Below are positions 29,694-31,057 of a stretch of 64,000 nt of DNA, one piece after another. The translations under genes were made by a program, and so were the position numbers. Below the pieces are notes generated by a model, which saw only the letters and a program-made list of their open reading frames with translations, did no database searches and had not been told where the DNA came from. This DNA comes from Terriglobia bacterium (GTDB lineage Bacteria; Acidobacteriota; Terriglobia; UBA7540), in the NCBI GenBank assembly GCA_035712365.1, contig DASTAW010000020.1, positions 1 through 64,000 on the forward strand, given 5' to 3'. The first letter of the stretch is position 1; the number at the start of each line of letters is the position of its first letter.

Positions 29694-29838
29694 AGGAGCT
29701 TCGCGAATCTTCTGGCTTCTGTGCGGCATCAAATGTGTGTTGGCGCAAGTTGTAGCTGGTGGGCGCGGCGCCGTACCTTACGGGAAACCATCGCGTGGGA
29801 TTGCCGCATCGTGTCGAGCGCGCAGGGAGGGGATTTTT

Positions 29839-30501
29839 ATGGGATTACTCAGTGACGAAGACGCTGTAGAAATCCGCCGACGGCTGAGCACAATGACGGC
29901 TCCCGTCAAAATCATCCATTTTACGCAGGAATTGAACCTGGAATATGGGCCTGAAACTCGCCAGGTTATCGAGGATCTGGCCGCACTGTCCGACAAGCTA
30001 TCGCTCGAAGTCTACGACTTTATTCTCGACAAAGAGAAGGTGGCCGAGTACGGCGTAGATAAGGCCCCTGCTACAGTGATCCGCAACGGGAAGGACTACG
30101 GTATCCGCTATTACGGCATGCCGGCCGGCTATGAATTTTCCACCGTGCTGGATGCGATTCTCGACGTTTCACAGGGTGATTCCGGCCTGGGCCCGGAGAG
30201 CAAAGAAAGGCTTGCTCAGCTTGACCAGCCAGTCCATCTGGAGGTCTTTGTAACGCCTACCTGACCGCACTGCCCGCGGGCGGTCCGCCTGGCGCACCAG
30301 TTTGCAATGGAAAGCGAGCACATCACGGCCGACTGCATCGAGGCCACGGAATTTCCCGATCTGGTTTCGCAGTATCGCGTCTACGCCGTACCCAAGACGG
30401 TGATCAACCAGACGCAGACGTTTGAAGGCGCGCTGCCGGAAAGCCACTTTCTGGACGCAATCATGACAGTCTTGCAGCCTGATCAGGGCGCGAAACCATA
30501 A
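29839..30501 (+). CDS. Glutaredoxin-like protein disulfide oxidoreductase, probable selenoprotein (in-frame UGA at codon 142)
   Basis: Read through one UGA this is a 220-residue protein with two thioredoxin folds. The N-terminal fold (FTQELNLEYGPETR, DYGIRYYGMPAGYEF) has lost its usual CxxC. The C-terminal fold reads VFVTPT-UGA-PHCPRAVRL, so the UGA replaces the first Cys of a CPxC active site, giving U-P-H-C. The frame is unchanged after the UGA and stays conserved to VPKTVINQTQTFEGALPE, as in intact family members with TPTCPYCPRAV. A SECIS-like hairpin follows the UGA. GGGAGGGG before the ATG fixes the start. Without Sec insertion the product would stop at 141 residues and lack its only redox site. 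Alternatives are a nonsense mutation or a sequencing error. Confidence 0.8.
30269..30301 (+). promoter_or_regulatory. Candidate bacterial SECIS element
   Basis: Directly after the UGA at 30262-30264, the outer stem ACTG (30269-30272) pairs with CAGT (30298-30301). An inner stem CGC/GGC pairs with GCC/GCG around a five-base apical loop GGTCC at 30282-30286. Loop G-G-U starts 18 bases after the UGA, close to the spacing in the E. coli fdhF element, whose loop also contains GGUC. SelB would recognise this hairpin. Confidence 0.7.
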
Positions 30502-30541
30502 AGGGCGTGCGGGCCGAGGCGGCTTGGCGCCGCGCGGTCGA

Positions 30542-31057
30542 TCAATACTTCAGCACCGAGTGCAAATCGTACTTCGTGAGTTTTTCCTTCCCGTTCAGGA
30601 ATTCGAGTTCAATCAGGAAGCCGGCGCCTGCCACGTTGCCGCCGAGTTGCTCCACGAGTTCGGCGACTGCCGCCGCGGTGCCGCCTGTGGCCAGCAGATC
30701 GTCAATGATCAGCACTCGCTGGCCTTGGCTGATCGCGTCCCGGTGGACTTCCAGACTGTCCTTGCCATACTCCAGGCTGTATTCCACACGCGCCGTTTCG
30801 GCGGGAAGCTTTTTCGGCTTGCGCACGGGAACGAATCCAGCATTCAGCCGATAGGCCACCATGGGCGCAAAGATGAAGCCGCGCGCCTCAATTCCCACCA
30901 CGCGATCGATCACCTGGCCAACGTAATGGTCGGCCAGAGAGTCCACAGCCGCGTGCAGGCCCACCGGGTCCTTCAGCAGCGTTGTGATGTCGTAAAACAG
31001 TATTCCTGGTTTGGGAAAGTCTGGAACTTCACGGATCAGCGCCTTGAGATTGTCCAC
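30542..31057 (-). CDS. apt: Adenine phosphoribosyltransferase
   Basis: A 171-residue type I phosphoribosyltransferase with the PRPP-binding motif [28 protein letters not shown] and [11 protein letters not shown]. It salvages adenine to AMP. The GTG start, seven to eight bases after GGAG, gives [21 protein letters not shown], matching the family; the longer frame runs back into the palindromic repeat at 31.1 kb. Confidence 0.95.

Follow-up and report, generated by a model that had tools for sequence, protein, structure and literature searches.

A probable selenocysteine-containing disulfide oxidoreductase with a single U-P-H-C centre in a Terriglobia bacterium

The 64,000-nucleotide stretch of a Terriglobia bacterium genome analysed here (the window) carries a gene that we read, with a probability of about 0.94, as a selenoprotein gene, in which an in-frame UGA specifies selenocysteine (Sec) and the product is a two-domain disulfide oxidoreductase of the PDO family with a single, C-terminal U-P-H-C centre, which would act as a reductase and not as an isomerase. 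In this reading an acidobacterium very probably uses Sec in a thioredoxin-like enzyme. A probable selenoprotein with this active site had been proposed by the first-pass annotation of the same DNA, and the proposal is supported by the Sec machinery of the genome, the alternation of TGA and Cys codons among relatives, the constraint on the sequence after the TGA and the enrichment of a hairpin across the set of TGA forms. The features concerned are as follows.

29839..30501, plus strand: putative Sec-containing PDO gene (TIGR02187), 220 residues with TGA read as Sec, stop codon TAA (translation, family score, alignment, model)
29824..29833, plus strand: Shine-Dalgarno-like purine run agggagggga before the ATG at 29839 (sequence read directly)
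29935..29949, plus strand: place of the former N-terminal CxxC, now NLEYG, residues 33-37 (alignments)
30262..30264, plus strand: in-frame TGA, predicted Sec 142, opening the U-P-H-C centre (translation and alignments)
30271..30273, plus strand: TGC, the presumed resolving Cys 145 of U-P-H-C (sequence; C145 invariant in 16 of 16 aligned sequences)
30277-30281 / 30287-30291, plus strand: SECIS-like hairpin with loop GGUCC at 30282-30286 (set of TGA forms; window alone p 0.14, z -0.20)

The frame 29839-30501 contains a single in-frame TGA, at codon 142, is otherwise open and terminates at TAA. This TGA aligns with the first Cys of TPTCPYCP in Pyrococcus PDO, and with the Cys of homologues across 88 sequences, the sequence being conserved on both sides; the corresponding claims of the first-pass annotation, including an intact 3' half, which is constrained in six relatives, and the loss of the N-terminal CxxC, are borne out by the alignments. 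A standard-code ORF finder ends the protein at residue 141, which makes it easy to overlook or misannotate a conserved redox enzyme in this lineage.

The read-through product matches the NCBIfam family TIGR02187 (PDO_seleno_TRX) over residues 6-210, scoring 274.6 bits where the cut-off is 185 (E 4.2e-82), and also the solved Pyrococcus PDOs 1j08 (E 2.3e-55) and 1a8l (E 5e-54). An AlphaFold2 model, built from 16 aligned sequences with the TGA read as Cys, has a mean pLDDT of 91.4 and consists of two fused thioredoxin folds. It superimposes along its full length on the Pyrococcus furiosus PDO 1a8l (Z 33.0, rmsd 1.1 over 213 residues, 46% identity), although the active-site motifs differ, being CQYC and CPYC in Pyrococcus and LEYG and UPHC in the window protein. 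The same double thioredoxin fold is found in the N-terminal domain of AhpF (1zyn, Z 26.4; 5h29, Z 29.0), which has one active CxxC, located in its C-terminal half. At 22 and 23% identity, however, this domain is a piece of a larger reductase, whereas the window protein is free-standing and has a predicted Sec. Compared with the two CxxC motifs by which the available text of PMC7465337 characterises classical PDOs, the N-terminal fold has LEYG instead and the C-terminal fold literally departs from CxxC as well, having UxxC with TGA in place of the first Cys; if the TGA is Sec, UxxC would be chemically the same kind of centre. Plasmid sequences gave 72 matching records, all below 60% identity; among the five that were listed, the annotation is ahpF in three, FAD-dependent oxidoreductase in one and thioredoxin family protein in one.

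The relatives were compared as a set of 88 sequences, comprising 73 over-cut-off matches (the window included) from 72 genomes out of the 396 in the phylum sample, and 15 named loci. The active-site codon is TGA in 39 of them, TGC in 29 and TGT in 20, and neither TAA nor TAG occurs at this site in any of the 88, so that UGA alternates with Cys codons, as the first-pass annotation had suggested should be checked, and the unrelated stops that would have spoken against Sec are absent. In two of the sequences (L056 and L062) the script read past a TGA near the C-terminus that we take to be the true stop; the active-site codon is unaffected. The nearest six relatives found (L088-L093, from assemblies labelled Acidobacteria and Terriglobia), 87 to 66% identical to the window protein, all combine TGA with NLEYG, and the next one (L094, 3002-3655), 61% identical, combines TGC with NLEYG. 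A quick maximum-likelihood tree, computed with the site masked and with SH-aLRT as its only support (stars on 32 of the 85 inner branches, flags on several long ones), requires at least 10 switches between Sec and Cys and offers seven independent pairs on starred branches. Both forms occur even within one genus (g182), a TGA form in genome G331 and a TGC form in G323. In the phylum sample selA is present in 29 of the 30 genomes with a TGA form versus 18 of the 42 with a Cys form (Fisher p 8e-7, kinship ignored). The exception, G341, has a TGA form and tRNA-Sec, but its selA match is only weak (E 4.4e-5). Seven of the eight named TGA loci likewise lie in genomes with selA over the cut-off, and no selA match was obtained in the 2.0 Mb assembly G397, home of the TGA form L089; selA is also present in the genome that carries the Cys form L094. 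One genome (G391) carries two TGA-form PDO genes, L081 and L083.

The host genome (G000; 4.67 Mb, 98.9% complete; the window belongs to its contig C20) contains selA, selB, selD and the gene of tRNA-Sec, all of which the first-pass annotation had named as the test of its proposal. The tRNA-Sec gene lies on the same contig as the window (C20:141469-141559, 68.9 bits), and ARAGORN calls it SeC with the anticodon tca; it is the only place used for the call, as Sec-less controls also match, below the cut-off, and a second place in the genome (C50:74506) scores 48.1 bits, barely above the cut-off of 47. The other genes are selB at C50:17405-19297 (353.7 bits), selA at C29:53445-54791 (580.5 bits) and selD at C33:124245-125168 (L014; 377.6 bits). 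The latter has one in-frame TGA of its own, within KAAGUAAK near the protein start, which we take to be the usual Sec/Cys site of SelD; judged by its sequence, this SelD is very probably a selenoprotein itself. None of the nine FdhA matches in the host genome has an internal stop, and the best of them, at 344.9 bits, falls short of the cut-off of 666.25.

With TGA being a stop in the standard code, and with the N-terminal CxxC also gone, as might be expected of a decaying gene, the TGA could be a true stop that leaves a pseudogene or a 141-residue N-terminal fragment. The dN/dS values on the 3' side of the TGA, between the window and L088-L093 in order, are 0.24, saturated, 0.19, 0.17, 0.23 and 0.09, and on the 5' side 0.05 in both unsaturated pairs. 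With 0.09-0.24 after the TGA against 0.05 before it, the 3' part evolves faster than the 5' part, yet is under clear purifying selection. This constraint, seen in five of six pairs, the TGA kept by six relatives whose 3' half is intact as well, and the Sec machinery in the genome together make a true stop very unlikely. Decoding as another residue, for example Trp through a reassigned code or a suppressor, is somewhat less probable still: TGA is reassigned in some lineages, but the catalytic place holds only TGA or Cys codons in the 88 sequences, L088 and L093 terminate the same frame at TGA by the rule of our script, and a tRNA-Sec is present. Finally, a sequencing or assembly error, for which a single base change from TGC or TGT would suffice, is practically refuted by the TGA at the same codon in the six separate assemblies of L088-L093 and in 39 of the 88 sequences.

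The Sec reading draws further support from RNA structure, at the level of the set. The hairpin in the window has its stem at 30277-30281 / 30287-30291, and the first base of its loop GGUCC is the 18th after the TGA; an alternative scoring adds one pair and gives the loop GUC. In the fdhF element of E. coli the loop is GGUCU, at nearly the same distance from the UGA. Position and loop are as the first-pass annotation had described them, whereas the window hairpin taken alone is not significant, with p 0.14 against synonymous recoding and z -0.20 against dinucleotide shuffles of its 22 bases (79 of 200 shuffles being as good). Moreover, the lowest-energy fold of the UGA and the following 48 bases (51 bases in total) is a different hairpin, with its loop closer to the UGA.

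Across the set, the picture is clearer. By rules that were self-made and fixed after sight of the first-pass hairpin and of the free folds (loop start at base 19 to 22, counting the T of TGA as 0; loop length 3-10; a G as first or second base of the loop; 4 pairs or more and no more than one mismatch), a hairpin at -5 kcal/mol or below with the loop G is present in 38 of the 39 TGA forms versus 16 of the 49 Cys forms; L050 is a TGA form that has none by these rules. The mean z against synonymous recoding is -1.66 for TGA forms and -0.15 for Cys forms. Taking one value per family group, with the window clade as one group and four groups counted on both sides, the means fall below zero in 17 of 18 TGA groups versus 12 of 25 Cys groups (p 4e-5). 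Free folding of the UGA and 48 bases separates the two forms poorly (mean z -0.66 versus -0.27, p 0.054), and TGA forms are set apart from Cys forms only when the hairpin is specified by the position of its loop and the G within it, it being noted that a conserved Val codon (GTN) gives one loop G regardless of structure. The place is conserved and the pairs are not: stem registers vary by lineage, and no column-wise covariation is therefore claimed. A cmscan of positions 29700-30600 gave no Rfam SECIS match; the sole Rfam match up to E 10, to an lncRNA family, scored 12.6 bits where the gathering score is 60 and was taken as chance. One Cys form, L023, sister of the TGA form L038 in the genus g182, has a strong hairpin (z -2.69), which may be either a remnant of a recent Sec-to-Cys change or the ground from which Sec arose.

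The sequence and alignments also reveal how far the window protein departs from the usual architecture. Its N-terminal motif is NLEYG, where most relatives have xCxxC, leaving U-P-H-C as the only active-site motif. The N-terminal motif is missing in 19 of the 39 TGA forms versus 4 of the 49 Cys forms, a raw count inflated by kinship. On the tree the motif undergoes a minimum of four changes, whose direction the count does not give, and the association between Sec and loss of the motif yields three independent pairs on starred branches and is not significant. The motif-less clades, all or mostly of the TGA form, are that of the window (8 rows, with one Cys form, L094), that of f41/f87 (4 rows, with one Cys form, L075) and that of f26 (9 rows); the remaining Cys forms without the motif are L054 and L087. 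Nested in motif-less TGA clades, L094 and L075 are probable Sec-to-Cys reversals, which would have produced a PDO with a single Cys centre. It is tempting to suggest, tentatively and as a possibility to which we give rather less than even odds, that single-centre Sec PDOs form a functional class of their own: Sec would have made the N-terminal CxxC dispensable, the motif would have been lost separately in the three acidobacterial TGA clades (window, f41/f87 and f26), and a two-centre isomerase/oxidase would have turned into a dedicated Sec reductase mimicking the N-terminal domain of AhpF, with L094 and L075 later reverting to Cys and not regaining the motif. If Sec indeed makes the second centre dispensable, this could be tested on two or three purified proteins. 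More broadly, the set, in which a single genus has both TGA and Cys forms and some TGA clades keep the N-terminal motif while others lack it, offers a natural series in which to ask what a thioredoxin-fold enzyme gains from Sec.

The likely function can be approached through the Sulfolobus PDO, in which, according to the available text of PMC7465337, the C-terminal centre is fundamental to thiol transfer, isomerase activity requires both centres, and the protein is reduced by thioredoxin reductase and regenerates Bcp peroxiredoxins. From these roles, and from the retention of the C-terminal centre only, we infer a reductase chain and the loss of isomerase activity. The UGA at 30262-30264 would be decoded as Sec by the ribosome with SelB, tRNA-Sec and the downstream hairpin, giving a two-domain PDO with an N-terminal fold devoid of CxxC and a C-terminal fold bearing U142-P-H-C145. 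The selenol of U142 would attack a substrate disulfide, C145 would resolve the mixed selenide-sulfide, and thioredoxin reductase, for which the genome has one over-cut-off gene (C29:43597-44496), would return the Sec-PDO to its reduced form. Electrons would thus pass from NADPH through thioredoxin reductase and Sec-PDO to the target disulfide, and the protein probably serves to reduce disulfides (or peroxiredoxins) with thioredoxin reductase as its electron source, and not as an isomerase.

The novelty of the finding was overstated by the first-pass annotation, as published lists of selenoprotein families already include this one. In the parts of these sources available to us, it has been so listed since 2006, for Carboxydothermus and Symbiobacterium (PMC1794560), its UxxC is given as predicted in 2022 (PMC9312934), four sequences of the family are reported from Asgard archaea in 2024 (PMC11227280), and the family is described as "predicted with high confidence" in 2026 (PMC13188914). 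The window protein shares with these the NCBIfam family and the UxxC motif, and is well supported as a further member of the already predicted Sec-PDO family, the loss of the N-terminal CxxC being its unusual feature. As far as their available text goes, none of the four papers places the family in Acidobacteriota, the word Acidobacteria occurring twice in PMC1794560. The use of Sec as such is already known from this phylum: for the acidobacterium Occallatibacter riparius, the available part of PMC12013277 tabulates three known selenoprotein genes. Among the open-licence papers listed by our searches, no title or abstract opening describes a Sec-PDO in Acidobacteriota or one that has lost its N-terminal centre.

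The surroundings of the gene are partly shared among relatives. In L088 and L089 the PDO is preceded by what we take to be mutS2 and a LOG-like gene. Six of the seven loci, L088-L092 and L094 (L093 being on a short contig), have a presumed apt downstream on the opposite strand, separated from the PDO by about 2 kb in L088, and the same six have a gene that we regard as acyP. A presumed glpD is found near the PDO in L088, L089, L091 and L092. Some named relatives have titles that point to bog or soil as their source (bog_367; 20 cm below a trench), and the occurrence of over-cut-off PDOs in 72 of the 396 sampled genomes stands against the statement, in the available text of PMC7465337, that PDOs are confined to thermophiles. 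One relative, a Cys-form PDO 47% identical to the window protein (L116), lies on a putatively viral contig of a viral collection (IMGVR_UViG_3300005855_000003).
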